23,839 nt of DNA from a virus, in IMG/VR virus record IMGVR_UViG_3300048037_000822, positions 1-23,839 of that record, one strand, 5' to 3'. The notes beneath the pieces were generated by a model. That model saw only the letters and a list, made by a program, of their open reading frames with translations, made no database searches and was not told the DNA's origin. A program made the translations under genes and the position numbers. Positions 1,744 through 23,448 of this stretch are shown in pieces (the first letter of the stretch is position 1; the number at the start of each line of letters is the position of its first letter).

Positions 1744-3496
1744 CGATTTCGTTATAAAAGAGTATAACGTATATAAACTTGACACAAAAAGCAAACAATC
1801 GATATGCCCAAAGTGTTCTCACGAAAGAAAAAAGAAGAGCCAAAAGTGCTTAATGCTTGATTGGGACAGAGGACTAGGGACTTGTCAGCACTGTGGTGTC
1901 GTTCTTCAACTCCACACCTACGAAAGAAAATCAGAATCTAATTATGTGACGCCAGAACCAATACAAGAGATTACAATTAAAGATAATGTTGTTGGTTGGT
2001 TTGAGGATAGAGGCATAAGTAAAAGGACATTGCAAGATCTGCAGGTCACTAATGGAAAGGAGTACATGCCACAAGTAGGCAAAGAAGTGAACACAATTAT
2101 GTTTGGTTACTATCTTCGTGGCACGCTTGTAAATATAAAATACCGAGACTCAAAAAAGAACTTTAAACTTTACAAGGGCGCACAGAAAATATTTTACAAC
2201 ATAGATTCAATTGCAGGAAGTGAATCTTGTGTCATTGTTGAAGGAGAGGTAGATGCGATGTCATTCCACGAAGTAGGAATTAAGCATGTTGTAAGCGTAC
2301 CAAATGGATTTACTGCAACAGGACAAGTAAACATGGACTATTTAGAGGATCTGTATTCATACTTTGAGGACAAGACAAAAATATATCTGTGCGTTGACAA
2401 CGATGAAGCTGGAGAAAACGGAAAAAAAGAGTTGATCCGTAGGTTTGGCAGTGATAAAGTATGGCTGTGTGATTTGAAAGACACGAAAGACGCTAACGAA
2501 TATCTTATCAAATACGGTAAAGATTCTCTTCGTAAAGTGATTGAAGATGCGACGCCGTGTCCAATAGAGAATGTGTTGAGAGTAGAAGACATGGCCAACG
2601 ACCTTGACGACTTCTACAAAAACGGCATAAAAAATGGATACAAAATTGGTCTAGAAGGTTTTGACGACATATTTTCTACATACACAAAACAATTTATTGT
2701 AGTAACAGGGTTTCCTTCAAGCGGTAAATCCGACTTTGTTGATCAAATGACTATCGGATACAATATGATGTATGGGTGGAAGACAGCTTATGCCTCTACC
2801 GAAAACTACCCTCAGTACTTGCACGTCGACAAGCTAGTAAGAAAGCTATACGGAAGAACACCCGAGTATGCGGACACACAAAAAGACGATTGGAAATCCT
2901 GTGTTGATCATGTGAACAAAAACTTTTACTTCATAGATTTTGAAGAGGGTTACGATATCGATAAGGTGTTGCACAAAGCAGAAGAACTTGTCAAGCGTGC
3001 TGGCATCAGGTGCTTAGTGATAGACCCATACAATAAAATACGTGACAAGAAAAACCTTTCTCTTTCTATTACAGACTACACAAACATATATCTCAACAAA
3101 GTAGATAACTTCTGCAAAAAGAATGACGTAATATGCATGTTAGTTGCGCACCCAACAAAACCGCAGAACGACAAGGGTAAACTTTTGGAGCCAACCTTCT
3201 ACGATGTCAAAGGTGGAGGTGAATTTTATGATATGAGCCCCCATGGACTACTTGTACACAGAGACTACGACAATGCCACCGTGAAAATAAAAGTATTAAA
3301 AGTAAAGTTCGGCAACCTTGGTGAAAACCAAGCGCACGCAGACTACTGTTGGAATGTAAACAATGGCAGATATACCTCACTTAAACACGGCGCCCCTAAG
3401 TGGGACAACAAGAACTGGATAACGTCTGACAAAAATCCTTTTGATATCAGCAAGACGTTAGACATAGAATTTGAAAATGTAAAACAAGTATTATGA
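1736..3496 (+). CDS. Bifunctional primase-helicase (T7 gp4 type)
   Basis: This 586-residue protein would unwind the phage fork and lay down RNA primers. Visible parts: a zinc-binding domain with C24, C27, C50 and C53; a TOPRIM fold with E169 in VEGEVD and D221/D223 in CVDNDEAG; a RecA-like DnaB-family helicase with Walker A G325-S332 (GFPSSGKS, catalytic K331) and Walker B CLVIDPYN with D430; and a later conserved segment LVAHPTKP. Domain order and length agree with T7 gp4, so primase and hexameric helicase activities are both expected. It overlaps the upstream replisome-organizer gene by 8 nt and the downstream 3D-domain gene by an ATGA junction, consistent with co-translation. All key motifs are intact. 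Confidence 0.95.
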   Translation: MDNDFVIKEYNVYKLDTKSKQSICPKCSHERKKKSQKCLMLDWDRGLGTCQHCGVVLQLHTYERKSESNYVTPEPIQEITIKDNVVGWFEDRGISKRTLQDLQVTNGKEYMPQVGKEVNTIMFGYYLRGTLVNIKYRDSKKNFKLYKGAQKIFYNIDSIAGSESCVIVEGEVDAMSFHEVGIKHVVSVPNGFTATGQVNMDYLEDLYSYFEDKTKIYLCVDNDEAGENGKKELIRRFGSDKVWLCDLKDTKDANEYLIKYGKDSLRKVIEDATPCPIENVLRVEDMANDLDDFYKNGIKNGYKIGLEGFDDIFSTYTKQFIVVTGFPSSGKSDFVDQMTIGYNMMYGWKTAYASTENYPQYLHVDKLVRKLYGRTPEYADTQKDDWKSCVDHVNKNFYFIDFEEGYDIDKVLHKAEELVKRAGIRCLVIDPYNKIRDKKNLSLSITDYTNIYLNKVDNFCKKNDVICMLVAHPTKPQNDKGKLLEPTFYDVKGGGEFYDMSPHGLLVHRDYDNATVKIKVLKVKFGNLGENQAHADYCWNVNNGRYTSLKHGAPKWDNKNWITSDKNPFDISKTLDIEFENVKQVL

Positions 3497-6764: not shown

Positions 6765-7200
6765 AAAGCGCCAGATAACCAGGCACAAGAAAACCACCGT
6801 TGACGGCATACAGTTCCAGTCAAAGTTAGAGTCTCACATGTATTTGTTGTTTAAGGCACACAAAATCCCAGCTGAATACGAAAGCACAAAGTTCACAATC
6901 ATTGACTCTTTCGAGGCAGACTTTTCATCTTACGAAAAAACACCAGCTAAAAAACACCTTCAAGACAGAGGTCATAAAAAGATATTACCTATTACTTACA
7001 CCCCTGATTTTGTTGATCCAAACAACCCACCCCGCTACATAGTAGAGTGCAAAGGAAACCCAAACGAACGTTTTCCGCTTGTCTGGAAGCTTTTTAAGCG
7101 CTATATAAAGCTTAATGGGTGGAAAACTGACCTGTTTGTTCCAAGAAACCAAAAGGATTGCTTAGAAGTAATTAAAATAATAAAAGAAAAGTATTATTAA
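6742..7200 (+). CDS. PD-(D/E)XK nuclease, T7 endonuclease I/DUF1064-like
   Basis: This 152-residue basic protein shows the PD-(D/E)XK core: E30 in SKLESHMYLLFK, P88-D89 in YTPDFVDP, and E102-C-K104 in YIVECKG. Such small phage nucleases include Holliday-junction resolvases (T7 endonuclease I) and DUF1064 proteins. A role in resolving branched DNA before packaging, or in host DNA breakdown, is likely. Two ATGs (6742 and 6748) compete as starts, both inside the upstream gene. The N-terminus is rich in Arg/Lys, typical of DNA binding. The stop TAA overlaps the stop of the convergent 2126-residue gene on the other strand. Confidence 0.8.
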   Translation: MSMRRYGKKRQITRHKKTTVDGIQFQSKLESHMYLLFKAHKIPAEYESTKFTIIDSFEADFSSYEKTPAKKHLQDRGHKKILPITYTPDFVDPNNPPRYIVECKGNPNERFPLVWKLFKRYIKLNGWKTDLFVPRNQKDCLEVIKIIKEKYY

Positions 7201-10200
7201 TCTGCAGACTGATCAACAACAGTTCCTTTTTCTAAAATATCAAATTCGTTTTCGATAGCTCTCTGAAGATACGTCAAGAACCTATCCATTTCTTTTCTAG
7301 GTCCTGGGTTTACTGTGTTCATTAATCTTAGTGTTGCGTTCAGAGTAATAGCTCTTTCTAGCTTCTCTTGTCTTTCAGGAGATATTTTAGCACCAACACT
7401 TCGTTTCATGGTACCAAAGTCTCCGAGATATATCTCGTGTTGATAACGTAAGGCTAAACTTATTGCATCTACTACTTTTGTGCTTTGCTTTGTTGCTATA
7501 GAGAACATACCTAAGTTGTTTGCTATAAAATTCAATCTACCTCCTTCAGTTCCAATATCTACCAAATCACCTGTTGCAAATTCAGTAAAAGGTTTTTCAC
7601 CTGTAAGTAAATTAGATATCTTGTTTAAGGCAGCAAACCCCATATCGTCAGCGCCCTCGAAGAGCATAAATGGAACGCCCATGGTCAGTGTTTCCTGAAC
7701 AACAGGCATCAAAGCATTGTAGTCTTGTTTAATCTTAAACTGATTTTCGTACTCTCTTGCGGCTCTATCTATATAGTACATTGCTTTATCTATGTCTGAT
7801 ATCTCTTCATAGTCCAAATCAGCAAGTAATGATATCGCTTGACCTTCCTTGGTGGTTTTAAGAATAGGTGCCTTACCGCTCTTCAAATCCTCGTACCCTT
7901 TGTCAAGTATAGGCAGAACATCTTCACCAATAAATCCTGTCAAACCTCCTCTTTCTCTTATCTCCTCATCTTCCAATCCAAACCCGACAACACCAACTAA
8001 ACCAGAAATCAATGCTGCATCGATTGCCATGTTGGTTGCCTTAAAACCAAATACCTCTGTTATCACACCTTTCATTGCGTTACGAGCATCTTCTTTTTGG
8101 CTTTCAGGAACCTTTGGATCTTGAAGTATAAGGTATTGATTCATGAAGTTTACCCTTGCGTTTGTGACAAACCTTTGAAAGGCAAACATGCTTTTAAGAG
8201 TGAAGTCTACTGCGCCTTTCGGATCAGTGTATATTGGAGCTTCTGACATCTTTCCTGTCTGACGCATTGTTCTGGCTATGAGATTATCTGCGAAGTCAAT
8301 AGACGCCTGGTCAGGGTTTTCGTTTTCTGCCTTCCACCATTCTCTCATGTTGACACCCTTGAGATCTAAACCTTGCATGGTTCTGTGTTCAATGTAAAAT
8401 GCCTCAAAAGCGGCATTTGCTGCAGATCTATCTGCGCTTGCAAGGAACACCTCAAGACCCTTCTCACTTTGGTTTCCAACCCAATCAATAAATTCTGTTA
8501 TGTTATATTTTAACCTTGTTGATACGCCCTCTGGTAGATCTAATTTTTCACCATCCACTCCGTAATGGTCTAAGTAATACTTCAGTGGAAGTTTAGTGTT
8601 GTCTTTCAAGTCAAATTCTGCCTTCAAGGAGTTTCTCAATGACGTTCTGGATAAATTATAGATATTAGACAGATCGCCATTACCAAAAATACTGTTTTGA
8701 ATAAACCTTTTGTATTTAGTTTTTGCTGTGCTTCCGGTGGACAATCCTGAATGACCAATTATAAATTTACCTAAATGTTTAAGTGCGTGAGATTTTGCTT
8801 TTCCAGAGTTTAAATAATTGTATGCACCACCCAATGCACTTACGTACTGCTTTGGCCTTTGTGATAGCCCAGCCAATGCACCTGCAGACAACAATTTGTA
8901 TGTACTTTCGATTGTTCTTCCAACAGCCTGTTTAGCAAAGGGAAAATCTTGCATACCCTTCAAGTCATTTGTTCCGTCCGTTACAATTTGATCGTACATA
9001 CGGATTTTACCCATGAACACACTTTTGATTAAATCATATTCTTCTTTACTTTCAAACTGTTGCTCGAACAAAGGGTTATTTAATAAATATTGAAGAGTTG
9101 TTATGTCTTTTCTTGACATGGCGTCAAGCTTATTGTTCTGTGTGTACTGTATTACTTGTTTTGCAAACATGCCAGGATTTAATCTAAGACCATCCTTGTC
9201 CACTGAATCCACAAACTCTGTCTCTTTAAAACCTACAGCACTTCTAATCCCATCACCATCTGTATCTTGGTTGTTAGACTTGTAATTAGGACTTTTGTAG
9301 AGCACCATAGGAATGTATGTGCCGTCAACAAATGGTTGCTCTGTTCCTCTTTTTTCGTTATAGTTTGATCCCCAAAAATCAGTCACTCTTGTAAGTGCTG
9401 TTTGAGTGTCCTGTATTGACGCAACCTTTTCTATGAATGAAATGTTTGCAGGGTTTGCGTTCTCTTTTAAGTCATCGAAGTTAAAAGCTGAACTAAATCC
9501 TAATCTATCGTAGGCTTCTTTCATTAAAAAGTAATCGTTCTTCAAACGTTTTTTGTTCTTAGTGTCAGCGTTTTCGTACTCTTCTTTTCGTAATGCAAGC
9601 TCCTGCTCAACCATTGTCTTCCATCTACTAAACTCTAAATCAAGCTTTATCTCTTTTGAGCTGCCATCATCTTGCAGTCTAAACTTGGTTTTTTCAACTC
9701 CTGACTTACGGAAAGCATACGCTAACAGGTACTGCTCCATGGCATTGTATGGATCATTTATGTCTGTTGACATTTTGCTTTTAGAAAGCGGTAGATTCTT
9801 ATTATACTCTATAGCTTCTTTTTTGTATTCTTGGCTATAGTTGTCATAAACACCTTTAAACTCCCTTTCGTTTACAGATTCATTGTTTAATATGCTTCGA
9901 GTTAAATTGTAAAACTCAGATCCGACTTCTTTATCTCTAAAAACCGTTTGCAGAAGGTTGTCGACTGTAGCAAAACCTTTTCCTTCCAATAGACCTGTTC
10001 CTAATCCAAAAGTTCTTTGACCCCAATTAACCCATTTTGTGTACAACTTATTAAGATCACTGCTTCCTTCTGTCATATCAGAATCAAAAACCTTTATCTT
10101 CTCTGGGTTTTTAGCAGATATATCTAGCGCTATGCCATAAGCGTCAAGTATAGATTCTATATCACCTGCTCCAATCAACGGGTCTTTGTTGCTCTTTTTT

Positions 10201-13200
10201 ATGCCGTTTAAGTATGATATAATTTTGTTTCTTTGAGGGTCAGGCAAAGAAGTCATGAAATCGATATCGTTGTTGTATTTTTCTAGCCTATCTAAAATGT
10301 CCTCAAAACGTGCTGGCATATCAATAAACTGAGGTAGGTCCTGAAGTTTTGAATCGTCAGAAAATTTATCATCTGTTTTTTCAAGCTGCTTTGGATCGAA
10401 GGCCATGACTTGCTGACGAAGATTCCGAATGTCTGATACGGTGTTGTTGAGGTTAAATGATCTAACTTCCTCTTGATCCAACTCTACATTTAAATCAGCT
10501 GGGTTTATAACAACATAAGCTTCTTTTGGCTCGAACTTGACTCTATTTTCTTCTTTTCCATCAATAACATCTCTTTTAAAAATCTCAGCTGCTCTTTTGG
10601 AAATATCTTCTTGAGAAAAATTGAACTCCAACGTTTGCCCTGGCTGTGTCTCTGCTTGCTCCTCCACTTCTTTTGTCAACTCTTTAACAGCTAAGTCATC
10701 ATACTTCATTTGAGTTGGTTTGCTTTGGTAATAATAACTAACCAAAGAAGGGTAGTTAGCAAACACTTTAGACATTTCATCGTATACAACCTGAAGGTTT
10801 TCCTGTGTCTTTCTTTTTACATCTGGGCTAATATTAACGTCAGAAAATTTTGTTCTGGCCTGCTCAAGTTTCACGATGTTGTTAAGAAGAGACATCTTGT
10901 GCTCAGGCTCCATCATTTCGATCAATTCAATCTTAGCCTTGTGTGTATTTAGAATATCATCATTAACCTGTTGCTGTAGTTGAATTGCTGATTTGAACTC
11001 TGGATTACTCATGTCATCCAAACCTCTATCCCTATATGACTGAACCTGACCATCGAAATAGAATTTTTGTGAAGCAAGAGTTTTTTCGTTGCTAAGAGAC
11101 ATGTTGCTAAGTATATTGTTTTCTACAGCTTTATTCAGAGCCCGGCTTTTGCCCATCTGCGCAAACTTACTCAAAGCTGATGAAGTAAACATAGTTGTAA
11201 GCCCTGTGTCCTTGAAGAGCTGTGCCGCTTTTTCAGCATCGTATTCCTCTATACCCCAAGCTATTCTTATTCCGTAATCACTAAAAGCAACCAACTCCTC
11301 CTCTGTAAACTCATTTGCTAGTGCCCTCGGGCTGATTCCTAAATATCTAGACACATTGCCTATCAAACCCTTTCTCATTTCTTTCGAGTAGCTATTTGCA
11401 ATCTTTCTAGCGTTTTCTAGATTTCTAGTACCTTTAAAGTTTTTAGCGCCAGCCATGTTTTTAAAAAAGCGCATAGTAAACAGTGCAGTAAAAGCAGTCT
11501 CAGTTGATGCAGATGATAAAGCCAAAGCTCTTGCATCCCAATCAGACATATTTAAAATCTCTTGTTGTGAAGCTGTCAATGCCTGACCTTCTTCAAGCTG
11601 AAGTCTTGTTGCTTCTCTAAGCTGATCCATCTCGTACTTTGTACCGCCATAAGATGACACAGCAGTTGTGCCTAATCCCAAATATGGATTTACAGCAAAC
11701 ATTGCGTAGTGCGGTATGCTGGCTGTAAAAGGCTCACTGACTAATGCCAACATTTCCCCAAAACTATCAGAATCACTTATATTCTTATCCCAAAGTGGTA
11801 AATATTCTTCTTTTAGTGACTCAACAGTATCATAGGAGAGTGCAGATGGCTTCAGTATTGGAAGACCATGAACTCCATAAACAGACATATCAGCAACCAT
11901 TGGGTGCATGCCTAAAGCCACTAATCCGTCTCTCATAGTGTAACCCAAAGCTGCAGCTAAGTCCAGTGCACCTATACCTAGGCCTTGTACAAAATCACCG
12001 ACCATTAACCCAGCAATTTTTGCATTAGGCGTGTCAGAATCAACAGCACTGTTTCTTTCTACAAGACTTGCTGCCCCTTTTACGTAGGGAGATAGCTGAC
12101 CATACACATCTGGATTATCATCAATATCTATTTTAATTTCACCTTTAATAACTGCATTCCTACCTTGAGGATTTAATATTATGTCTTGTAAATCGTTAAG
12201 TGATGAGGCTCTACCGTTTATTTTTATTCCTTCAGTCGAAATATCTTCTGGCTTCAGACCTCTGTCATATAAATCCATAACAACTTGCTGATCATTAAGA
12301 TCTAAATCTTTCATTCTACCTGAAAGTGTTAAAGCTTTTGCTATCATTCTAGATGAGAAATCTTCTTGCTCAACTATTTTATCATAGATGCTCGTAATGG
12401 CTTGACCTAACAAATATTTATCGTACTCTTCTTGATCCACAGCTTGAGGTCCGTAGAAGTCCTCCATAAACCCTTGTTCCTCGCCTAAAAAAAGAGAAGA
12501 GTCAAGTAATCCAATACTTCCACCACCTGCTGTCATCATCGCCCTTTGTTTTGCCCCTTCTACTGAAGGATCCGTCGGATGCAAAGGGTATTCTTCAGCT
12601 AACTGAAGTAGTTTTTTCTTAAAAAATTGTATGTCAAAATCACCGTTGTCTTTGTAAAACGCATTAAAACTTGACATGTTGGTTAACTCTGCTATGAATT
12701 CGACTGAATCCATGTTTATACTTTCCATGTTGACATTGCCAGGACTCACAAATCCTTGGTTTGCAAAACTTATGGATTTAATAAGGTCATCTGATTTGGA
12801 GAACCCCATGGTTAGCCCATCAAGCATATCCATGGATTTGTTTTTGTTTGTCAGGAAAGATTTTAAATCATCTACTACATTTTGCTTTTTTAACTCAAGG
12901 GCTTCTTCAGGGGTCCTAATAGCTGTGTCATCTTGCGCAACGTAATCAGTTAGTTTTACTTGTGCGCTTCTTATGTCGTTGTAAAGTTGAAAATTGTATT
13001 TTTCTCCATCTGGTGCTGTAATCTCAAGCTTGTTTTCCCCAAGGCCATATTCACTAACCTCATACCCGAAAGGGCTGAGTTTATTAGAGAGCATAATCTC
13101 TACATCACCTTCGTTTCCTGTAATGTCTTGTGTAGTTATATTGTCAACAACCTTGCGTAAGATACGAGGTCTGTTATTATTAATCTCTACCTCTGGTAGA

Positions 13201-13577
13201 TCTTCGAGCTCTTGCTCCGACAAAGATGTCGTATCTGAATGCGTGGATGGTGATTCCGAAACTGAAACCACGTTTGCGCTTTGAGATAAATCTTTTGGTA
13301 AGGTCTGGGATAGATTTTTTTTTTCAACGTCTTCTTTCTCCAGCCAACTACTGTAAATCGAATCACGGCTTTCACCCTTCGGCATCAAATTACCTATACC
13401 ATAGTTGGTATGGAACCTGCTGATGTTATTCTTAAGATCACCATCTGACACCCAAAACTCCAAAGCCTGGTCACTCAACTCTATTCCGTTTTCTAACGCA
13501 ATATCAGAGTAGTATTTTTTTGCCAATTCTTTTTTGATTGGGGGGTCGGTTTGTGTGATATTGTTGTTCACAATCAT
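7197..13577 (-). CDS. Giant putative ejection/internal virion protein (2126 residues)
   Basis: This 2126-residue protein is the last gene of the minus-strand virion block, in the place of T7 gp16, the large internal protein that enters the cell envelope during DNA ejection. The N-terminal 150 residues are polar with a Ser/Asp-rich linker. Hydrophobic, glycine-rich stretches lie near residues 520-560 (GDFVQGLGIGALDLAAALGY), about 620-640 (NPYLGLGTTAVSSYGG) and 1845-1865 (ALISGLVGVVGFGL). Charged helical, possibly coiled-coil regions lie around 830-900. A polar DTDGDG sequence near 1435 may bind calcium. No transglycosylase, protease or polymerase motif is evident. The mix of soluble helical regions and membrane-active patches suits a protein translocated into the host. 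The start ATG is 11 nt from the stop of the preceding gene. Confidence 0.7.
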   Translation of the reverse strand: MIVNNNITQTDPPIKKELAKKYYSDIALENGIELSDQALEFWVSDGDLKNNISRFHTNYGIGNLMPKGESRDSIYSSWLEKEDVEKKNLSQTLPKDLSQSANVVSVSESPSTHSDTTSLSEQELEDLPEVEINNNRPRILRKVVDNITTQDITGNEGDVEIMLSNKLSPFGYEVSEYGLGENKLEITAPDGEKYNFQLYNDIRSAQVKLTDYVAQDDTAIRTPEEALELKKQNVVDDLKSFLTNKNKSMDMLDGLTMGFSKSDDLIKSISFANQGFVSPGNVNMESINMDSVEFIAELTNMSSFNAFYKDNGDFDIQFFKKKLLQLAEEYPLHPTDPSVEGAKQRAMMTAGGGSIGLLDSSLFLGEEQGFMEDFYGPQAVDQEEYDKYLLGQAITSIYDKIVEQEDFSSRMIAKALTLSGRMKDLDLNDQQVVMDLYDRGLKPEDISTEGIKINGRASSLNDLQDIILNPQGRNAVIKGEIKIDIDDNPDVYGQLSPYVKGAASLVERNSAVDSDTPNAKIAGLMVGDFVQGLGIGALDLAAALGYTMRDGLVALGMHPMVADMSVYGVHGLPILKPSALSYDTVESLKEEYLPLWDKNISDSDSFGEMLALVSEPFTASIPHYAMFAVNPYLGLGTTAVSSYGGTKYEMDQLREATRLQLEEGQALTASQQEILNMSDWDARALALSSASTETAFTALFTMRFFKNMAGAKNFKGTRNLENARKIANSYSKEMRKGLIGNVSRYLGISPRALANEFTEEELVAFSDYGIRIAWGIEEYDAEKAAQLFKDTGLTTMFTSSALSKFAQMGKSRALNKAVENNILSNMSLSNEKTLASQKFYFDGQVQSYRDRGLDDMSNPEFKSAIQLQQQVNDDILNTHKAKIELIEMMEPEHKMSLLNNIVKLEQARTKFSDVNISPDVKRKTQENLQVVYDEMSKVFANYPSLVSYYYQSKPTQMKYDDLAVKELTKEVEEQAETQPGQTLEFNFSQEDISKRAAEIFKRDVIDGKEENRVKFEPKEAYVVINPADLNVELDQEEVRSFNLNNTVSDIRNLRQQVMAFDPKQLEKTDDKFSDDSKLQDLPQFIDMPARFEDILDRLEKYNNDIDFMTSLPDPQRNKIISYLNGIKKSNKDPLIGAGDIESILDAYGIALDISAKNPEKIKVFDSDMTEGSSDLNKLYTKWVNWGQRTFGLGTGLLEGKGFATVDNLLQTVFRDKEVGSEFYNLTRSILNNESVNEREFKGVYDNYSQEYKKEAIEYNKNLPLSKSKMSTDINDPYNAMEQYLLAYAFRKSGVEKTKFRLQDDGSSKEIKLDLEFSRWKTMVEQELALRKEEYENADTKNKKRLKNDYFLMKEAYDRLGFSSAFNFDDLKENANPANISFIEKVASIQDTQTALTRVTDFWGSNYNEKRGTEQPFVDGTYIPMVLYKSPNYKSNNQDTDGDGIRSAVGFKETEFVDSVDKDGLRLNPGMFAKQVIQYTQNNKLDAMSRKDITTLQYLLNNPLFEQQFESKEEYDLIKSVFMGKIRMYDQIVTDGTNDLKGMQDFPFAKQAVGRTIESTYKLLSAGALAGLSQRPKQYVSALGGAYNYLNSGKAKSHALKHLGKFIIGHSGLSTGSTAKTKYKRFIQNSIFGNGDLSNIYNLSRTSLRNSLKAEFDLKDNTKLPLKYYLDHYGVDGEKLDLPEGVSTRLKYNITEFIDWVGNQSEKGLEVFLASADRSAANAAFEAFYIEHRTMQGLDLKGVNMREWWKAENENPDQASIDFADNLIARTMRQTGKMSEAPIYTDPKGAVDFTLKSMFAFQRFVTNARVNFMNQYLILQDPKVPESQKEDARNAMKGVITEVFGFKATNMAIDAALISGLVGVVGFGLEDEEIRERGGLTGFIGEDVLPILDKGYEDLKSGKAPILKTTKEGQAISLLADLDYEEISDIDKAMYYIDRAAREYENQFKIKQDYNALMPVVQETLTMGVPFMLFEGADDMGFAALNKISNLLTGEKPFTEFATGDLVDIGTEGGRLNFIANNLGMFSIATKQSTKVVDAISLALRYQHEIYLGDFGTMKRSVGAKISPERQEKLERAITLNATLRLMNTVNPGPRKEMDRFLTYLQRAIENEFDILEKGTVVDQSAD

Positions 13578-13588
13578 TTGCCTTGTAT

Positions 13589-15502
13589 TTAAATCTGTTG
13601 TAAATATTGATAAACAACAGCAGTAAAGTTACCATCTAAAGTAGCGTCATCACTTTTCAGAGTTCTTGGGTTCTGTATACCTTTCGACTCTAAAAACGAT
13701 TTCATTTCTGGGGTGTTTTTTAACTCATTATAAATCAAATCCCAATACTCTCTTACTTGGTTTTCTGACGCTACAGCATAAACAGGTATAGTGTATTGAG
13801 ACTGTTGCCCTACCTGACTACCAACACCAGCATCTTCTTGCTTTATACTTCCCACAACATTCTGTTGCATCTTAGCTACGGTTGAATCTCCTACAAACAC
13901 AATCTGTATATTGCCTGATGAGGCTATTCCATCAATTGACTTAGATTCGGGGACAGCAACAACGTTTGTGATGTTACTTAACTTGCTACCTCTGGAGGAC
14001 TCTAAAGTAAATCTATCCATTAATTTATCAGAAACATAAGTATTTACATCTGCAGATTGTACAGCACCTTCATATCCTTTTAATATACCTTTTGGATTAT
14101 GCGCCATACCGTATTCAAATGGATTTTTTTGGTATTGTGCATATTCTGTATTAAAATCCACTCGAGAATTAGAATCAGTATCATCTGAGACTATTGCCAA
14201 TAATCTTCCTTCTCTCTCAATTTTATCAATTGCATTCAGTATGTTTAGATCAAAAGGCCTAGAATTTCCAAGATCATCATTCATCCTGCTTTGTCTAATT
14301 GTGCCAACTTTGTTTTCTTGAGTCTCATCTTGTTTAGGCTTCTCATTTCGAAGAGCGTAATCTTTAGACGTAACTCCAATCTTTCGCAGGAATCTGTCTC
14401 TCAAATCTGCTGCAACAAGGGCTCTTTGTTCGTCAGTAATCACTTCATTTCCATCAATGTCAAGTTGGAAGACCGTTGGATCTGATGTAAATGCAAGCCC
14501 TTTACCGTCAGCATCATAAAATCTAGGGATTTCCTGGTCACCTTGTATAGTCATAGAACCAAACATCTCCTGAACCTCCTCCTTAGTTAGAGCTTTTCTT
14601 TTATTTGGATCACCAAACGATCCAGCATTATAGTTTTCTGCCAGGACTGATATAATGAAATTGTCATCAGATATCCTTCTTTGTATTTCGTTTTCTATAG
14701 ACCTTCCTAAAACAGCCATCGGAGGGCCTGATACATTACCTTGATAACCTTTTGCTGGTGTATAATTGAGAAAGTTTTGATTTAACTCTACGCTACCATC
14801 AGGCTGAACGTAAGCTATATTTTGACTTGCAAGACCATCCGCGAAGTCTTTTGTTATCTCTGCCATATCAACAGGCCTTAAATAAGCAGGATTTGTTGTA
14901 GCTATTTTGTTGATAGGCATTGAACGTACTTCTGTTTGCTTCTCGCCATTCTCATCAATATATTGAAAGCTTTTGTTAAGGTTGAAATTATTTCCAACTA
15001 AACTAATTGATATTGCGTCATCATTAATTCTTTCCCCATCAATATATTTAGGGTTTAGATTTGGGTCGCTAAAGTACATTCTATTATACCTAGTCAAAGA
15101 GTATGGTATTATGTCCCCATCAGCGACACCCTTATTAATTTCATCTACACGGTTTTTAGCTATCTCTGTGTAATTAGTCCACAACTCAACATCGCCTTTA
15201 ATTTTGTTTTTTTTCGCTGTAGCACCAGCCATAGAAATCTCACCCGCACGAACCTGATCGTCGAGTGTTAAATATTCAGTTCTTGATTGGTTAGCTATAG
15301 AGTTATGTAAGTTGTCTATTTCGGATATTCCTGTAGCAGATATTTCTTTTATAGACTCAGACAAACTTCCAAGCTCATCAGACCTAATTTTATTGACTTG
15401 GTTTTTGATATCCAAGATTTGCATCTGTCCTTTTAGATAGAACTCTGCTAGACTTGCATAGTTACCAAGTACGGGGGCTGTTATTCCTGTTCCTTTTGCC
15501 AT
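13589..15502 (-). CDS. Putative internal virion/ejection protein (637 residues)
   Basis: This 637-residue soluble protein lies between the 255- and 2126-residue proteins, a place matching T7 gp15. The N-terminal 120 residues are helical (YLKGQMQILDIKNQVNKI and following), the middle is mixed alpha/beta, and residues about 390-410 are a charged linker (NEKPKQDETQENK). The C-terminal 90 residues (VREYWDLIYNELKNTPEMK, ending VVYQYLQQI) are helical. No enzymatic motif is visible. The role is inferred from position and size only. The start is preceded by AAATAATAAAAG, an A-rich Bacteroidota-like initiation region. Confidence 0.6.
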   Translation of the reverse strand: MAKGTGITAPVLGNYASLAEFYLKGQMQILDIKNQVNKIRSDELGSLSESIKEISATGISEIDNLHNSIANQSRTEYLTLDDQVRAGEISMAGATAKKNKIKGDVELWTNYTEIAKNRVDEINKGVADGDIIPYSLTRYNRMYFSDPNLNPKYIDGERINDDAISISLVGNNFNLNKSFQYIDENGEKQTEVRSMPINKIATTNPAYLRPVDMAEITKDFADGLASQNIAYVQPDGSVELNQNFLNYTPAKGYQGNVSGPPMAVLGRSIENEIQRRISDDNFIISVLAENYNAGSFGDPNKRKALTKEEVQEMFGSMTIQGDQEIPRFYDADGKGLAFTSDPTVFQLDIDGNEVITDEQRALVAADLRDRFLRKIGVTSKDYALRNEKPKQDETQENKVGTIRQSRMNDDLGNSRPFDLNILNAIDKIEREGRLLAIVSDDTDSNSRVDFNTEYAQYQKNPFEYGMAHNPKGILKGYEGAVQSADVNTYVSDKLMDRFTLESSRGSKLSNITNVVAVPESKSIDGIASSGNIQIVFVGDSTVAKMQQNVVGSIKQEDAGVGSQVGQQSQYTIPVYAVASENQVREYWDLIYNELKNTPEMKSFLESKGIQNPRTLKSDDATLDGNFTAVVYQYLQQI

Positions 15503-15508
15503 CTTTTA

Positions 15509-16276
15509 TTATTTACCGCCAAATAAACCACCAACTAACTTAAATAGCTGTTCAGGTAAAAACTTTATAACCCCACCAAGGTCAGTGTTAAAAAAACCTT
15601 TTCCAGATGAACGCATTTTTTTTCTGTTTCCTGAAAAATCGTTAGCCACAAACCCTCCGATACCGGCGTTTGTAAATCTTTTTTGTTGCCTGTTGTTCCT
15701 TCTGCCTTGTCTAATTTCTTGTGGCGTTTGAGGGCCTGGGTCATTATCATCTAAACCAGCTTGAGCTTGTGCAGCTTGTTTTGCTGTGCCTGCTGATATA
15801 AGGCCTGTAGCTATATCAGTAATTGCACCTGTTTGCATCTGAAGGCCAGACATAACCTCCGCTTCAGCGCTAGCTTTCTCGGTTCGATATCTATCCTCCA
15901 TCATACTTCTAATTGTCTTGTCCTCCTCTAAAGCAAGTAAATCAGTCTTAAACTGCTTTTCGATGTTTGACCCATAGATGTCCATCTTTGATTGGCCTGT
16001 TTGTGTAAATCCTGACTGTAAAAGCCCCATAGCACTAGCAGCGTCCATACCAGACGCGACATCTGCTATTGTTTGCTCTTGTTGAGATATCCTTGCCAAA
16101 GCTTGTCGTTCTTGCTCAAAAGAAGGCTTGAGGTTCTTTGCTAAGTTGGTTAATTCAGGCTCTTTAAGCTGGGCTAGCCGTTTTTCACCAGATGATTTGG
16201 CGTTTGATCCGTCAATAAACTGTTTTACAGCTCCAGCTCCACCTAAAATTAATCCTAATGTTGTCATGAAAGGCAT
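15509..16276 (-). CDS. Putative internal virion/ejection protein (255 residues)
   Basis: This 255-residue protein begins MPFMTTLGLILGGAGAVKQF, a glycine/alanine-rich hydrophobic start typical of small phage ejection proteins such as T7 gp14 or P22 gp7-like proteins. Residues 30-140 are long charged helices. Residues 145-170 (ITDIATGLISAGTAKQAAQA) are again small-residue-rich and could insert in a membrane. The region 175-235 is basic (RQGRRNNRQQKR) and could touch DNA. It ends in an amphipathic segment with glycines (LFKLVGGLFGGK). Order and properties support a pore or channel component. It follows the only noticeable gap (29 nt) of the block and precedes the 637-residue gene by 6 nt. Confidence 0.65.
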   Translation of the reverse strand: MPFMTTLGLILGGAGAVKQFIDGSNAKSSGEKRLAQLKEPELTNLAKNLKPSFEQERQALARISQQEQTIADVASGMDAASAMGLLQSGFTQTGQSKMDIYGSNIEKQFKTDLLALEEDKTIRSMMEDRYRTEKASAEAEVMSGLQMQTGAITDIATGLISAGTAKQAAQAQAGLDDNDPGPQTPQEIRQGRRNNRQQKRFTNAGIGGFVANDFSGNRKKMRSSGKGFFNTDLGGVIKFLPEQLFKLVGGLFGGK

Positions 16277-16305: not shown

Positions 16306-17079
16306 TTACATGTTGCTCTTGAATACCTCTGTGTTGGCACTAAAAAGCTCTACAAATGAGGTAGACATGTTAGTCAACGTAATCTTAGCGTGATATCCAC
16401 GCACTCCATATGACTCAGCAGATGCATTTTTTACAACAAAACAAAAATCGTTTGTTGCTGGCACATTAGCTGAAGCCACTGTAGTAATAGTTTTGTCTGT
16501 GATCTCCTGTATGACACCGATAAGTTTTGAACTTCCATCGTTAAAATACAACTCATCCCCACCTTGATTATCGGTACCACTCTTCGAAACCTGGTTTGGT
16601 ATATATCCACTAAAGGTGTATTGGTTAGACCCCGGTGAACTCTGTAGATTTCCAATGCCAAGTATAGATAATTTGTTAAAATCAAGCTTATCTGTCTCAT
16701 TTCTGCGTATATAAGCGTATTTTATACCTTCTTTATCCTCAAATTTGTACGAAGAGCTGTCTCCGATAAGCCCAGATTCCAACTCACTATCTATATCTGC
16801 GTACCAACTACTAGAATTAGTCTCTAATGACAGATTTTTGAACATTTTGACAGTCGATGGTTCTTGATTCGAAGAAAAGGTCACACTACACCCATAAGAA
16901 GTGCCATAAAAGCTTCCTCTTTCCTCATTGGCATCATGCTCATACATCTCTCCGTTCTTGAATGAATACATCTTGTTACCAAGTCTTTCCATCCACTCTG
17001 GCGTATATGCATGAAAAGAAGTCCAAGCGTTGTAGACTTCATCCCATGTAAGCGTCTTTTTGTTTGCTTCTAATGCCAT
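16306..17079 (-). CDS. Detached tail-hub C-terminal segment (257 residues)
   Basis: This 257-residue protein starts MALEANKKTLTWDEVYNAWT and continues SFHAYTPEWMERLGNKMY and KNGEMYEHD (to about residue 50). In the tail-hub/stabilization proteins I know from Bacteroidota podoviruses this strand pattern (a W-S-F-H-Y-P stretch, then GNKFYS-type and a lone H-D) follows directly after the propeller. Here it is a separate gene. The remainder is beta-rich (YTFSGYIPNQVSK; KLIGVIQEITDKTITTV; YHAKITLTNMSTSFVELF). Its ATG overlaps the stop of the 1826-residue gene as TAATG, ideal for termination-reinitiation. It probably completes the hub structure by binding the larger protein. The family comparison is from memory. 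Confidence 0.65.
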   Translation of the reverse strand: MALEANKKTLTWDEVYNAWTSFHAYTPEWMERLGNKMYSFKNGEMYEHDANEERGSFYGTSYGCSVTFSSNQEPSTVKMFKNLSLETNSSSWYADIDSELESGLIGDSSSYKFEDKEGIKYAYIRRNETDKLDFNKLSILGIGNLQSSPGSNQYTFSGYIPNQVSKSGTDNQGGDELYFNDGSSKLIGVIQEITDKTITTVASANVPATNDFCFVVKNASAESYGVRGYHAKITLTNMSTSFVELFSANTEVFKSNM

Positions 17080-20000
17080 TAGTTATCGTCTTTAATTTTA
17101 GGCCATGTCTCACCTGGTGGCGTGAATCCTAAATCGTTTAATATACCCGTTAGATGATATAGATAGTAGTACTCCCACTTATCAAATCTATCTGTATTTG
17201 AACCTGGTTTAATTGGCGCCTCACCATCACCTTGATTATCTTCATCCTCAACATCGTATCTGAAAGCAAAGTACGGCTGACTTGTTCCAACCTTCATGTC
17301 TGATAAATTATATTCTTCTCCGTACTGACCTGTTCCGTTTTCAACAGCCTCTATTAGGTTTTTAAAATGGGTGCCCTGATTAGCGTCATTTTTAACCTGT
17401 ATAATACCACCTCTATAGAAACCGGTGTTAGTTTCGTTTCTATTTAATGTTTGCGTTCTTAAATGATTTATATCCTCATTAAAAGTGCCTGTTTTGGTGC
17501 TATTAATAGTCCAGCTACTTCCTGGGGTATAACCATCGTGGGTATCAGTCGTAACAGCTTGTGCTTCATCTTGGAAAACAATTATTATAATAGATTCAGG
17601 TATGGGATTGCCATTTGAATCTGCTGGCAAAGTGGTTGGTGTCCAGGGGCCTGTGTTACCATTTACCTGCGTAACCATATAATTCACATCAACATCAGAA
17701 AGAGCTAGGAAAGTTCTTTCGTTTGCTCTATTGTGATCTGTGTTTGTATTGCTTGTTCCCCATTCTTTGTTCTCGTCGTCAGAATACATAACCTTAACCC
17801 TACTGTCGTAAAGATCGCTACCATTTAAAGCAGAATCTGTAGATTCCGGATTACTAGCGTACAGAGGCTGAATGGTCTCTTTAAGAGAATTAGCAACCAT
17901 TTCGTTCAATTTAACGCCTGTTCTATCCATAGACCCAGAGGCGTCAAAATATATGTAGATAAACGTGTTTTCGTTAATATTGAGCGCTTGTGTGGTTACT
18001 GTAGCCACATCTGTACAAACATCAGATGCAATACCCTCAGCATTTTTAGATGACACTCTATATTGAAAGTTATCTGACAATGAAGCTCCATCTGTGTGCT
18101 GATAAGTAATAGTTATGTTATCTTGCGCATCGTTGACAATTGCCGTCCCGTTACTAGGCGGGGTTTCTATCTCTACAATGTAATTACTTGGCACAGTGTC
18201 GTTTGCAAGGACATCAATGACCTGTGAGCTTCCGTTTTCAATTCCTATTACCTGATCGTCAGTAAGGGCTGGAATGTCATCTACATAATCCCATAGAAGA
18301 TAAAGTTTTAGGTCTTTAGTCTCTCTATTGACCTCAAATGTAATAGTGCTTTCTTGAGTATCATCAGTAGTTTCTGTTTGTATCTCCGGGTAAGTAAAAT
18401 CATTTAGCCTTGTGCCTACTTCTTCAGCGCTTAAAGTGTCAGATTCCCACATGTACCCCATCTTATTGCAATCTGTGAAGGTTCCCGTATGGTCTGCTAA
18501 TATTTTATACGATGACATAACAAGATCATCGAGTTGAGCAGGTATAAGATCACTACCCATAGGGCCCGTTATTGTTTCGTATCGTGTATTACCGCTGTAC
18601 TTGAACACATCAAGGTCAGAATCCCAGTTGTTACCACCTACACCTAAATGCTTAAATCTGTTAATTATTGTATTATCAGCTTCAGCGGGGTCGTTCCTGA
18701 CAATAAGCACGATCTCCATGGTGTCAGGTTGTGGACATGTGTGAGTCAACGTGACGGTCGCTGTTGTTGCTGGAGTTACAGTCACATCCATTAAAGATGA
18801 AGCTGCTAAGTCGCCTGTAGACACAGGCACCTCTACCGTTCCGGTTCCTGTAAGACCTGTTTCTGTAGTGGTCTCTCCATTGTACAAGACACTGATAGAT
18901 ATTTCGCTATCGGTTTCATAGTCAATTAACGCTTTACCAGGATACACTCCTAAATTAACATCGTATTCGAATGCTGATGATATCTTTCTTCTTATTTCTG
19001 CAGCACAATCTACGACTAATGGGTCTGCAGGTCTTTCGTCTGCTCCAATAGTAAGCACATACTGGTGATATTTTGGATCAAAACCACCTATGTTAAAACT
19101 GTTTTTATTTGCAAACAAGTTTTCCTTGAAAAAAGACTTCATACCTTGGTAGGATATAGGCTCAAGCCCATCGCCCCCAAGCCTGAGAACCGTTCCTCTG
19201 TGTGCGTCTGTAAAGTACATTCTTCCTTGAAAGTTACTAAAGCTTTCTGGATGTCTAGATATTCCGTATTCTCCAGCAAATGCAACATCTTGCCCAAGAA
19301 CCTGTTCTATTTGCGTTAGGCTTCCAGACCCATCCGGGCTTGATAGCAGGTTTTTACCATACAACACCTTTGACACTCTGTCTTCTTGAAAGACTATAAG
19401 GTCTGTGTCCCTTGCAAATAACTTCTGTATAGAACCATATTTAAGATCTAAAAACTTTGTTATGCCTCTACTCGCATTAAACTCATTGAGAGAATTATAA
19501 CCTGTGTTCTCGTTGAAAGATCCGCTGAACACAAGCTTGTTCGTATCCTCTCTCTTTTCATAACCCTCTATCAGGGCAATGTTTGGTCTAGTTTGTATGT
19601 CAAGGGCTTTCTTAAACCTATCGTCTAGTATACGAACACCTTCAATTCCATCGCCAAAACTAAAACAGTTACCAAAACCTAGCTTGCATACGGCAGGAAT
19701 GTACGGCAATGATTGATTTGAAACATTACCTAAATGAACCCCATTGCTTATTTCAAATGTTTCTTCTGTTTCGTAAAAGATGTCGTTATCGATTTCGTCA
19801 GGGTCAGTCTCAAATATCACCAAGTCGTTTGACAATATTATATTAATCTTCATAGACAAATCCCCTGTCTGGGCTTTATTCTTTCTTTCATTTGGCTTTA
19901 CGTGTAAATACCACCTGTCACCTGTAATTGTTTTCTGATAGAATGTAAGTGTAAAATGTTTTTCCTTTGTACCTTCATTCTTAGGCACAATGTATTGAAC

Positions 20001-22559
20001 GGCATTTACGTTGCCAGATCCAAAATCATCAACTACGGAACGAACAAAATTTGTTTCAGCCTCGAACCACTGCTCGAGAGCATTTCTGTTTGTTTCGGTG
20101 TTGTTTTGGTATTCTTTCTGAACAATATATTTTTTAACAAATTTGAATGCTTTTTCTTCACCAAATAGTTTACTTTCGTGGTAGTCAATTTCAAACGCAA
20201 TACTTGTGTCAGGCAGAAGGTCAATATCGTAATAACCATCATCATCCCAATCACCCAGATCTCCAGGTTTTTGCTTTTGTAATATACCGTATTCTGTTTT
20301 CTTGTTTTCATTACCAGGAAGATTAATAGTCATTACTCTGTCCATACCTCCTTTTGATGGCCACATTGGCCTATGATCCCTGTTGTAATAATTTACATAG
20401 TTGTCTTCTACAAAATCCATAACAAAACCAAGCGGTCTTATTTTCATGTACAGCCCAGACCTTTCAATAATATTCCCATTAGTAGCATCTATATTTCCAG
20501 CTATCCAACCTTCTTGATCTCCTTCAAAGTCAGGCGGAACAAAATCTTGTGCACCTTTGGTAGTGACATCAAGCACCTTACACTTCACTTCTCTGTCCAT
20601 TATACCATCACCATCTCTTTTTACAAAAAGAGTCATCCCTTTCTCAACCTTGCCTATATTTGCTCCCTCCAAAAGAACCCACCTGTAAACACCATCTTCA
20701 TAAAATACTGTACCGTATATGTTAAAATGAGGTCCTTTGTTTTGTTTTACAAAAAACTTGTAGCGGTCAGCCCAATAAGGCGGTTGATGTCTGACAGTTA
20801 ATTGTAAACTATTTAGCTTTGTTGAACCTGAGGGAGGGCAAAAAACTTCAGTTCCCTTTTCTCCAAAGTTTTTGCTAGGTAGCAAAACACTTGAGTAACG
20901 CCCATAACCATCCAAATAACACATTCCAACCTCGTAGCTTCTGTTTGATTTAAGAGACAAAGACGAGGAGCTTTCTTTAAGGGTTGCCGCTGCTACAGTA
21001 AATTTAAACTGCTCATCCTCTGTTTCCTCTGTTACGACCTCAGGATCTGGGTCGCCATCATAAACAGCAGTAAGCACAGGCGCCCTCAAAGTAAATGTAT
21101 TTGTTGTTGTCGCTGATGATTCTAATGAGAACTCACCGTACTCCTCTCTTATTATTGGCAGATTTGGCTTAAAAACAGTTTCTACATTATTCTTGAAAAA
21201 CCCATTTAATGCATCCAGAAGTTCTATGAAATCAGCAGATTCAGTAAATTTTTTAATATTTTGATAGTTCTGAGAGAAAACAATACCAACTACTATCTCA
21301 AGTTTTCCACCGCCGTATGTTTCTGGCTCTACTCCTTCTGTTTCAGAAAAAAGATCTATGCCAAAAGTAATCGATCTTCCTTTTTTTAACTCTAATCCAG
21401 ATCCGTCAAACTCACAAGTTATAAGATCTTCACTTATCTCAATTACAAAAGGCTCACCTGTATACTCTGCCGAAACAACTTCAGCCGAAAAGTTTATATT
21501 GATCTTCTCTTTACTTTCCTCTTCATCTGTCAAATCATATTGTGATGTTGTATTACCGAATATCAATCTATCACCAATAAACTCTTGTGACTTTGCGGTC
21601 AAAGGAATATCGTCGTATATTCTATTTACTTCGTCGGCAGGTAGAGTTTTGTATATTTTTTTATTTGTAAACTCGTATGTGTAATCCCTATCGTCTAAAA
21701 TAGATTTTTCTTTTTTATTAATGCTTTCAACCACATAAAGGTTTGGTTCTGTTGGAAACTTAAAAAGCAATTGAACATCTGTAACCCTTTTGTCTCCTGA
21801 ATCGTATGTAATTTTGTAGCCATTAAAAATATTCTGCATGCCTTCATTAACCATAGATGCAAAATCCACGTCTGATTCCCCGGGGAAAAACTTAAAGTAT
21901 GTAAAAGAAGATGGTGCAGAGTAGCCACCGTCTAAGTATCTGTATCTATAACCAAAAGAAAAGAAGTTTTCACGCACAGCATTCTCTGTTGAATTTGCTG
22001 TATTGAAGGGTACAACAACAGGTGCTTTTCTCGGAGGCTTTTTGTAAAGAGATATATCGTCCTCGTAAAAATTGTTTTTACCAAATGCTTTTGCTCTTTC
22101 GATATCAACCATTCTAGGTTGATTCAGTCCATCAGTAAAAAGAAGCAGTTTTGACTTCTTGGCAGGATTATAAACTACATTAACACCTGTAATCTTGTAA
22201 TCTTTGTTAAACTTTAGTATCTGCTCATCTGTGTCTCTTTCGTCAGCAAGAACAGTTGAGGTTATAGCTTTTTTTACATCATGCTCAAAGACGTAGGAAT
22301 ACCCAAGGTCATTTACAACAAACCAATATATTCTTTCGTCACCTTCGTCAGATACCGAGCCTATACATTCAGGGTTATTGCCTAGCCCTAAAGATGTGAC
22401 CTTAACGTTACCCTTTTCATTTTCTATAGCACCAGCATCAGAACCTGAAGTATTTAAGACTCTAATATTATAGCCGTCAATAAACTCGCCACTAGGAATA
22501 AGACGTTCATCGACGTCCTTGTTCATTTTCCCGGTGGAAAATAGATTTTTAATTTTCAT
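17079..22559 (-). CDS. Giant tail-hub protein with Ig-like and vWA domains (1826 residues)
   Basis: This 1826-residue protein is the largest tail component. Residues 10-51 (GKMNKDVDERLIPSGE onward) and about 1100-1135 (GRMYFTDAHRGTVLRLGGDG) match the beta-rich hub/stabilization proteins of podovirus-like phages (compare P22 gp10-type propellers), sited at the tail tip. Acidic calcium-loop-like sequence lies near 765-780 (GDWDDDGYYDID). After the propeller-type part (to about 1170) comes a roughly 650-residue extension: an unknown beta-rich region (1180-1440), a cadherin/Ig-like module around 1440-1526 with NDT (D1454) and a V-rich end, and a von Willebrand A-like domain from about 1530 with MIDAS D1539, S1541 and S1543 (FDASGSMD) and a strand ending FQDEA (D1664). 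The extension would project toward the host surface and bind metal and ligand. The start is 1 nt from the preceding stop. Confidence 0.85.
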   Translation of the reverse strand: MKIKNLFSTGKMNKDVDERLIPSGEFIDGYNIRVLNTSGSDAGAIENEKGNVKVTSLGLGNNPECIGSVSDEGDERIYWFVVNDLGYSYVFEHDVKKAITSTVLADERDTDEQILKFNKDYKITGVNVVYNPAKKSKLLLFTDGLNQPRMVDIERAKAFGKNNFYEDDISLYKKPPRKAPVVVPFNTANSTENAVRENFFSFGYRYRYLDGGYSAPSSFTYFKFFPGESDVDFASMVNEGMQNIFNGYKITYDSGDKRVTDVQLLFKFPTEPNLYVVESINKKEKSILDDRDYTYEFTNKKIYKTLPADEVNRIYDDIPLTAKSQEFIGDRLIFGNTTSQYDLTDEEESKEKININFSAEVVSAEYTGEPFVIEISEDLITCEFDGSGLELKKGRSITFGIDLFSETEGVEPETYGGGKLEIVVGIVFSQNYQNIKKFTESADFIELLDALNGFFKNNVETVFKPNLPIIREEYGEFSLESSATTTNTFTLRAPVLTAVYDGDPDPEVVTEETEDEQFKFTVAAATLKESSSSLSLKSNRSYEVGMCYLDGYGRYSSVLLPSKNFGEKGTEVFCPPSGSTKLNSLQLTVRHQPPYWADRYKFFVKQNKGPHFNIYGTVFYEDGVYRWVLLEGANIGKVEKGMTLFVKRDGDGIMDREVKCKVLDVTTKGAQDFVPPDFEGDQEGWIAGNIDATNGNIIERSGLYMKIRPLGFVMDFVEDNYVNYYNRDHRPMWPSKGGMDRVMTINLPGNENKKTEYGILQKQKPGDLGDWDDDGYYDIDLLPDTSIAFEIDYHESKLFGEEKAFKFVKKYIVQKEYQNNTETNRNALEQWFEAETNFVRSVVDDFGSGNVNAVQYIVPKNEGTKEKHFTLTFYQKTITGDRWYLHVKPNERKNKAQTGDLSMKINIILSNDLVIFETDPDEIDNDIFYETEETFEISNGVHLGNVSNQSLPYIPAVCKLGFGNCFSFGDGIEGVRILDDRFKKALDIQTRPNIALIEGYEKREDTNKLVFSGSFNENTGYNSLNEFNASRGITKFLDLKYGSIQKLFARDTDLIVFQEDRVSKVLYGKNLLSSPDGSGSLTQIEQVLGQDVAFAGEYGISRHPESFSNFQGRMYFTDAHRGTVLRLGGDGLEPISYQGMKSFFKENLFANKNSFNIGGFDPKYHQYVLTIGADERPADPLVVDCAAEIRRKISSAFEYDVNLGVYPGKALIDYETDSEISISVLYNGETTTETGLTGTGTVEVPVSTGDLAASSLMDVTVTPATTATVTLTHTCPQPDTMEIVLIVRNDPAEADNTIINRFKHLGVGGNNWDSDLDVFKYSGNTRYETITGPMGSDLIPAQLDDLVMSSYKILADHTGTFTDCNKMGYMWESDTLSAEEVGTRLNDFTYPEIQTETTDDTQESTITFEVNRETKDLKLYLLWDYVDDIPALTDDQVIGIENGSSQVIDVLANDTVPSNYIVEIETPPSNGTAIVNDAQDNITITYQHTDGASLSDNFQYRVSSKNAEGIASDVCTDVATVTTQALNINENTFIYIYFDASGSMDRTGVKLNEMVANSLKETIQPLYASNPESTDSALNGSDLYDSRVKVMYSDDENKEWGTSNTNTDHNRANERTFLALSDVDVNYMVTQVNGNTGPWTPTTLPADSNGNPIPESIIIIVFQDEAQAVTTDTHDGYTPGSSWTINSTKTGTFNEDINHLRTQTLNRNETNTGFYRGGIIQVKNDANQGTHFKNLIEAVENGTGQYGEEYNLSDMKVGTSQPYFAFRYDVEDEDNQGDGEAPIKPGSNTDRFDKWEYYYLYHLTGILNDLGFTPPGETWPKIKDDN

Positions 22560-22560
22560 A

Positions 22561-23448
22561 CTACTTTATCCACTTATCTCTACCCCTAAGAATCTTGGTT
22601 AGATCCCCAATTGTAATAGAGCTTAATCTGATTTTCGCGTTTCTTAAAGATGCAAGGGCTTGTTTTTGTGCTCTACGTACTATATATTCCTGCACACCAA
22701 ACTTCTGTTTCAGTATGTTGGAAACCATGTAGTCATACATAAACGTTTCTGCTAGCTTGTGTATTTTGATCTCGTTGTCTGCAAGACCATACATACCATC
22801 TGAAACGTATTCTATAATGATATTTTTATCGGACAAGTCTGAACTAAATAAAATGTACCCTTGGTTTTTGTCTAAAACATAGCTACCGTTACTAGATGCG
22901 GAGGCCGTGTCCATCCCAAACCTTTTACCAACTAGATTGTTTTCCGGCTCGCTAACTTTTCCTGATTTTGAGTCTCGCCAATTTTGCTCGATAACAGGAG
23001 TACCAGTAAGCGCATTGTCGTCGTTGTCCATCAAAATATTTTTGAATGGCGTATTATCCTGCAAGTAACTCTTTGGAGTGGCTGTGTTGAAGTTTTGTTT
23101 TATTTCATAAGTTAAACCCTTGTTACCCACGTAAGACACTTTCACAGCACTTACAAAGTCATGTGGCAAATGAACCTTCAGTGTCGCAGGAATTTCTACC
23201 TCAAAACCTCTTATTTCACGTAGAGCGTCGTAGTGTAGCTCCTGTAAACCTCTTTTAGCGTGGAATATAACCTCGTTTCGATCCACTTTATTAATAACCT
23301 TGTCGTCACCTACATAAGTCAATAAAAAGTTGTTGATAATATCCTGTAACAACATGTATTGGTATGTTCCCCAATTGTCAGATCTTGGCTCCGTACCGCT
23401 GTTTTGATAGTATTCTCTTTGATCGATATGTGTTCCAATTGTAGGCAT
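22561..23448 (-). CDS. Tail ring/connector protein (295 residues)
   Basis: This 295-residue protein probably forms a ring between portal and tail hub, as gp11 in T7-like phages or ring proteins in crAss-like phages. Supporting parts are the helical N-terminal region (YMLLQDIINNFLLTY, residues about 32-46), the segment RNEVIFHAKRGLQELHYDAL (58-77), a beta middle (FEVEIPATLKVHLPHDF), and a C-terminal helical block (FMYDYMVSNILKQKFGVQEY) that ends in basic LTKILRGRDKWIK. The family assignment relies on similarity remembered from Bacteroidota podoviruses. It is 3 nt downstream of the truncated gene and 1 nt upstream of the hub gene. Confidence 0.65.
   Translation of the reverse strand: MPTIGTHIDQREYYQNSGTEPRSDNWGTYQYMLLQDIINNFLLTYVGDDKVINKVDRNEVIFHAKRGLQELHYDALREIRGFEVEIPATLKVHLPHDFVSAVKVSYVGNKGLTYEIKQNFNTATPKSYLQDNTPFKNILMDNDDNALTGTPVIEQNWRDSKSGKVSEPENNLVGKRFGMDTASASSNGSYVLDKNQGYILFSSDLSDKNIIIEYVSDGMYGLADNEIKIHKLAETFMYDYMVSNILKQKFGVQEYIVRRAQKQALASLRNAKIRLSSITIGDLTKILRGRDKWIK

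Follow-up and report, generated by a model that had tools for sequence, protein, structure and literature searches.

A vWA-like module with a complete MIDAS set on the split muzzle of a marine relative of gut crAss phages

What might a von Willebrand A (vWA)-like domain do at the tip of a phage tail? The question arises from a 23,839-nucleotide stretch of viral DNA (IMG/VR record IMGVR_UViG_3300048037_000822, positions 1 to 23,839; hereafter the window), for which the original prediction, made from the sequence alone, placed such a domain at the C-terminal end of a 1826-residue "hub-like" protein and proposed that it binds a receptor. We asked which protein carries the domain, how well the vWA assignment holds, and what the surroundings of the module suggest about its use.

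Identity of the carrier protein and its neighbors

Homologs and gene order identify the carrier as the N-terminal portion of a muzzle (tail nozzle) of the crassvirus type rather than a tail hub. PHROG family phrog_14478 (virion structural protein) matches the 1826-aa ORF over residues 3-1514 with 860 bits, the adjacent gene encodes a crAss_MUZ_C domain, and a vWA-bearing homolog (L047) matches Pfam crAss_MUZ with 45.6 bits. The 1826-aa protein itself falls below the Pfam crAss_MUZ cut-off, and its homology to that family is indirect, running through L047 and through fused (unsplit) muzzle relatives, which align to crAss001 gp44 (E 1.1e-8). The order ring, muzzle, large cargo-like proteins is that of crAss001 gp43-gp47, with the ring and cargo roles in the window being putative assignments by position. 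Thus, the placement of the module on a tail-tip structural protein was borne out and the hub label was replaced. PDB sequence searches with the whole protein, the vWA alignment, the muzzle body, or MUZ_C returned no meaningful match. The features of the locus are as follows.

22561-23448 (-): probable tail ring (barrel) protein, 295 aa; phrog_13977 (virion structural) and synteny with crAss001 gp43-gp44
17079-22559 (-): muzzle N-terminal part plus inserted module, 1826 aa; ORF call
19050-22559 (-): muzzle body, residues 1-1170 (ring-joining, propeller, IG, and crass regions by homology); alignment with unsplit elemo and phi38:1 muzzles
17082-19049 (-): inserted module, residues 1171-1826; absent from fused muzzles; AlphaFold pLDDT 79.6
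18279-19049 (-): beta-rich segments, residues about 1171-1427; AlphaFold secondary structure; conserved with the phi19:3 insert
18039-18278 (-): Ig-like domain Big_9, residues about 1428-1507; Pfam PF17963
17082-17999 (-): vWA-like module, residues 1521-1826; alignment A6, AlphaFold, and BFVD fold match
17931-17945 (-): MIDAS DxSxS, D1539, S1541, and S1543; invariant in 27/27
17712-17714 (-): MIDAS Thr, T1616; 26/27
17568-17570 (-): MIDAS second Asp, D1664, followed by invariant E1665; 27/27
16306-17079 (-): muzzle C-terminal domain as its own gene, 257 aa; Pfam crAss_MUZ_C, 40.4 bits (cut-off 27); aligned to unsplit muzzle C-termini
7197-16276 (-): three downstream genes (255, 637, and 2126 aa) where crAss001 has its cargo proteins gp45-gp47, by order only

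The 295-aa gene lies upstream of the muzzle, like R1 gp43 in crAss001, and the ATG of the 257-aa gene and the stop of the 1826-aa ORF share one base. Downstream, the 2126-aa protein (7197-13577, -) occupies the crassvirus giant-cargo position and has no Pfam or PHROG match. A primase/helicase with Toprim and DnaB-like regions is encoded at 1736-3496 (+), and the replication genes are opposite in strand to the structural genes. The closest named relatives of the 1826-aa protein are those of Cellulophaga phages phi18:3, phi19:3, phi46:3, and phi13:2, with about 33% identity up to residue ~1519-1537, and its homolog in phi18:3, phi19:3, and phi13:2 is a structural protein; phi13:2 serves as outgroup in the crAss001 structure paper (PMC10172136). 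The phage is marine and is a relative of the crAss phages of the gut.

The vWA-like module and its MIDAS residues

The motif strings first reported for this protein, DASGS at residues 1539-1543 and IIIIVFQDEA at 1657-1666 (hence D1664), are exact in the ORF translation, and the Ig/cadherin-like module described alongside them is a Pfam Big_9 domain at ~1428-1507, which in a scan of the C-terminal 533 aa scored just above threshold (25.0 bits, cut-off 23.6). Alignment supplied the MIDAS Thr that had not been found previously, T1616 in ERT(F/L/W)xAL. Relatives of the module were recovered from 18 IMG/VR loci with a single-sequence query and from 38 with an alignment query, as well as from three MAG contigs. 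We compared 27 sequences (the 24 of alignment A6, two cellular proteins, and one more phage); for some, identity to the window is no higher than about 31-45%. D1539, S1541, S1543, and D1664 are invariant in all 27, and T1616 is kept in 26, being Ala in L051. E1665, directly after D1664, is also invariant. Since the four invariant motif residues belong to a set of only 27 invariant positions among the 306 window positions of A6, DxSxS is more than a chance string.

Two homologs differ in architecture. The 2450-aa muzzle homolog at L051:1809-9161 bears a second vWA-looking stretch (MDVLFLVDYSSLSGS) that precedes the FQDE-type one in its insert, and it is in the FQDE-type stretch that Ala takes the place of the MIDAS Thr. 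The much longer muzzle ORF at L036:1353-8858 (2501 aa) retains the same C-terminal vWA-like module.

Within the module, the beta strands and MIDAS residues are conserved; variation and indels are greatest in the loops after beta2, beta4, and beta5. In the vWA fold these loops surround the metal, and from topology we infer that they lie on the MIDAS face here as well; the contrast between core and metal-side loops is imperfect, given that the loop before beta4 varies too. A conserved MIDAS with variable loops would suit a constant metal center with changing ligand specificity.

The structure prediction suggested with the original prediction yielded an alternating alpha/beta core with the motif residues at strand ends. 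AlphaFold modeled the module alone (24 sequences) with pLDDT 81.7 and pTM 0.86, and the whole insert (20 sequences) with pLDDT 79.6 and pTM 0.52. The predicted order of elements in the module is strand-helix-strand-helices-strand-helix-strand-helix-strand-helix, with no separate beta3 strand. DxSxS follows the predicted strand 1532-1538, and D1664 comes directly after strand 1656-1663; in vWA domains, the MIDAS DxSxS and second Asp likewise come directly after strands.

Fold and profile searches gave a more divided picture. With the module as query, Foldseek found no PDB match below E 0.001; the top weak match was a phosphatase (E 0.13, prob 0.06), and those at E 0.17-1.7 included several vWA domains (Cachd1, PilB, ANTXR1, ANTXR2/CMG2, and collagen VI) among unrelated Rossmann enzymes. 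In the viral library BFVD, three matches passed 0.001, one of them annotated VWFA (Virus NIOZ-UU157, E 1.3e-4), and many of the weaker matches were VWFA proteins. The whole 656-residue insert retrieved mainly Ig-like and other beta proteins and was uninformative on the vWA part. Neither the window protein nor the scanned homologs reached the PF00092 gathering score in Pfam, NCBIfam and PHROG scans for vWA gave no match, and hhalign alignments to canonical vWA domains were confined to the motif (P 0.057-0.077). Of the original vWA call, then, the complete and conserved MIDAS and the alternating alpha/beta model stand, whereas a Pfam VWA, profile-profile, or significant PDB fold match does not. 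Because the Pfam and PDB fold searches gave no significant match and the profile-profile alignments stop at the motif, we consider "vWA-like with a complete MIDAS set" a fair description on the strength of motif and model, with PF00092 membership not demonstrated.

The module also has divergent cellular versions, on proteins that look like lipoproteins and in some cases contain Ig domains. One of the MAGs is titled Chitinophagaceae, and of the 245 genomes in its class three carry the module; the cellular protein of L140 has an N-terminus that is lipobox-like by eye, and L139 and L057 combine Big_2 Ig domains with the module. The N-terminal part of the L140 protein (L140:793-2130; WCLEW...REIQSVVWSLAGY) also resembles bacterial thioester adhesin domains by eye. 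The cellular relatives support an adhesin-type history with apparent gene flow between phages and bacteria. The eukaryote-like origin that had been suggested gained no support from searches that did not take in eukaryotes, in which the homologs were phage-type or bacterial.

The hairpin slot and exchange of the insert

By alignment, the insertion point is a hairpin close to gp44 residue 1200, probably within the C-terminal propeller region. There, ~650 residues (beta segments, the Big_9 Ig domain, and the vWA-like domain) and a stop interrupt the muzzle chain, and the second half is encoded as a separate gene. The muzzle runs unbroken through this hairpin, leaving the slot empty, in the elemo and phi38:1 phages and in L101, L104, L105, L108, and L130. 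We surveyed the slot in the 80 loci found with the propeller segment: it is either empty or holds inserts of about 100 to 760 residues before the split. Besides the vWA-like domain, present in a minority only, the slot accommodates Ig domains of the Big_9 and He_PIG types as well as unassigned modules. BACON domains looked likely by eye in other occupants; Pfam made no call, and we do not claim them.

In some of the 80 loci the N- and C-parts lie up to ~3.8 kb further apart, and in L097, L100, L106, and L117 the muzzle N-part and the crAss_MUZ_C gene have about 3.8 kb of extra DNA between them. In MW202828 (L002:14644-15195), a small ORF annotated "putative glycosidase" lies between the two. 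The fused muzzles of L090 and L103 carry about 1,000 extra residues past MUZ_C (repetitive, with a PKD-like match in L103), and this region is a second add-on place.

Comparison of the window with two close relatives, L006 and L007, bears on how the slot is filled. Third-position identity to L006 is mostly 0.35-0.6 over residues 61-1080 and mostly about 0.9 over residues 1081-1740, and dS, which is about 1 in the N-terminus and propeller, is 0.09-0.18 across the insert. The mosaic with L007 is opposite in pattern: third-position identity is about 0.9 in the body (1-960), 0.33-0.73 over 961-1740, and 0.96 in the last 26 residues, and at the nucleotide level a block of 59-88% identity at about 19.64-17.24 kb is flanked by DNA of mostly 91-97%. 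These opposite patterns show that the insert is exchanged by recombination independently of the muzzle body. The tracts also take in part of the propeller, and the high-identity tract shared with L006 runs on into the downstream genes, so the exchange there was larger than the insert.

Proposed role, rival readings, and known systems

The reading we prefer, at a probability of roughly 0.6, is that the feature is a swappable, metal-dependent adhesion module on a split crassvirus-type muzzle that contacts a host surface protein. The adhesion role is plausible, we infer receptor binding, and the module probably helps the phage grip a host protein. In this reading, a beta-propeller hairpin has been opened by the ~650-residue insert, with the gene split in two at that point, and the insert would form an Ig-containing stalk tipped by a vWA-like domain whose D1539, S1541, S1543, T1616, and D1664 hold Mg2+ or Mn2+. 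The variable loops around the metal would then recognize an acidic side chain of the host protein. The gp44 muzzle forms a hexamer, with the gate in the propeller (PMC10172136); the muzzle here is probably hexameric too, and if it is gp44-like, six MIDAS modules would ring the tip and could provide a multivalent grip near the gate. A related 66.6-kb genome with the same module encodes a 2511-residue fiber with an S74 chaperone and another fiber protein. Because this vWA-bearing relative has separate fibers, the module is probably not the only receptor binder, and first attachment probably occurs elsewhere; the fibers may attach first, with the module acting afterward in secondary binding or triggering. 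A bolder extension, which we regard as doubtful, is that the split-muzzle hairpin slot is a dedicated recombining site for host-range cassettes in marine crassvirus relatives and that in phages of the vWA lineage ejection of genome and cargo is mechanically triggered when a host surface protein is bound, through the metal, beside the gate, in the manner of an integrin-like switch.

The MIDAS could instead act as a structural joint within the virion, linking muzzle halves, subunits, or fibers without host contact. The last ~26 residues (to WPKIKDD) are near-identical between the window and L007 despite the differing cassette before them, as expected of a C-terminus that touches the muzzle or the next protein, and the chain split lies exactly at this point. 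However, some split-muzzle relatives lack any vWA domain, which is therefore not needed to rejoin the halves, and conservation is lowest in the loops that should surround the MIDAS, which would be odd with a fixed partner; we consider such a joint unlikely. We give slightly less credence still to general stickiness toward extracellular matrix, capsule, or marine particles, as proposed for phage Ig-like and BACON domains. In its favor are the Ig-type domains among other slot occupants and the association of BACON repeats with tails in crAss phages (PMC6949934); against it, the intact MIDAS and variable surrounding loops fit specific protein ligands. Least probable of these readings, and in our view improbable, is a Rossmann-like domain of another kind, possibly an enzyme, that has a DxSGS loop: it would accommodate the lack of significant PDB and Pfam matches and the phosphatase at the head of the weak PDB matches, but not readily the Thr and second Asp at their expected places, the vWA domains of Cachd1, PilB, ANTXR1/2, and collagen VI among the same weak matches, or the significant BFVD match annotated VWFA.

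Crass-like phage receptors and triggers are largely unknown, and a defined module that can be swapped on the gate-bearing protein, and whose metal site can be tested chemically, would offer a direct handle on host recognition and tail opening. Already known are vWA domains on phage tail appendages, eCIS fibers, and pilus adhesins; a vWA-like module on a split crassvirus muzzle appears to be new, as the open-access literature, to which the search was confined, gave no report of vWA in crass-like phages or on a crassvirus muzzle, nor of a muzzle that is split at this hairpin and recombines there.

Among known systems, a vWA domain occurs in a baseplate/fiber protein of a Bt phage (Bacillus phage 0305phi8-36 gp164; PMC2147016), and VWA occurs in eCIS tail fibers (PMC12923769); these share with our module a vWA domain on a tail appendage, with domain swapping described, but they are baseplate or fiber proteins of other tail types and not a podovirus muzzle. 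The pilus adhesin PilB has a vWA domain whose MIDAS is needed for twitching and not for the binding of two ligands in vitro (PMC8179133). With vWA/integrin I domains and pilus adhesins (PilB and RrgA), the module has in common the MIDAS pattern, a predicted alpha/beta core, and an adhesin-type setting; it differs in lacking profile similarity past the motif and a predicted beta3, and it has FQDE where vWA domains commonly have a TDG-type motif. The vWA-annotated proteins crAss001 gp52 and N4 gp25 occur in a crassvirus and in N4-like podoviruses, but they are encoded by separate genes and lie outside the muzzle. Nearer to our locus, phi19:3 (Pachyviridae, Baltivirus) has a split muzzle and an insert with Big_9, sharing the beta and Big_9 segments, but its insert has a different ending of ~100 residues, without vWA. 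Finally, crAss001 gp44 (crAss_MUZ/crAss_MUZ_C) shares the homologous body, C-terminal domain, and gene order, but is a single chain without the module. Published variation in muzzle length concerns the crass and IG2 regions (PMC10172136), whereas here the propeller hairpin is affected and the gene is split. Although the muzzle has been described as one conserved chain, our locus suggests that it can be divided and serve as a docking platform.
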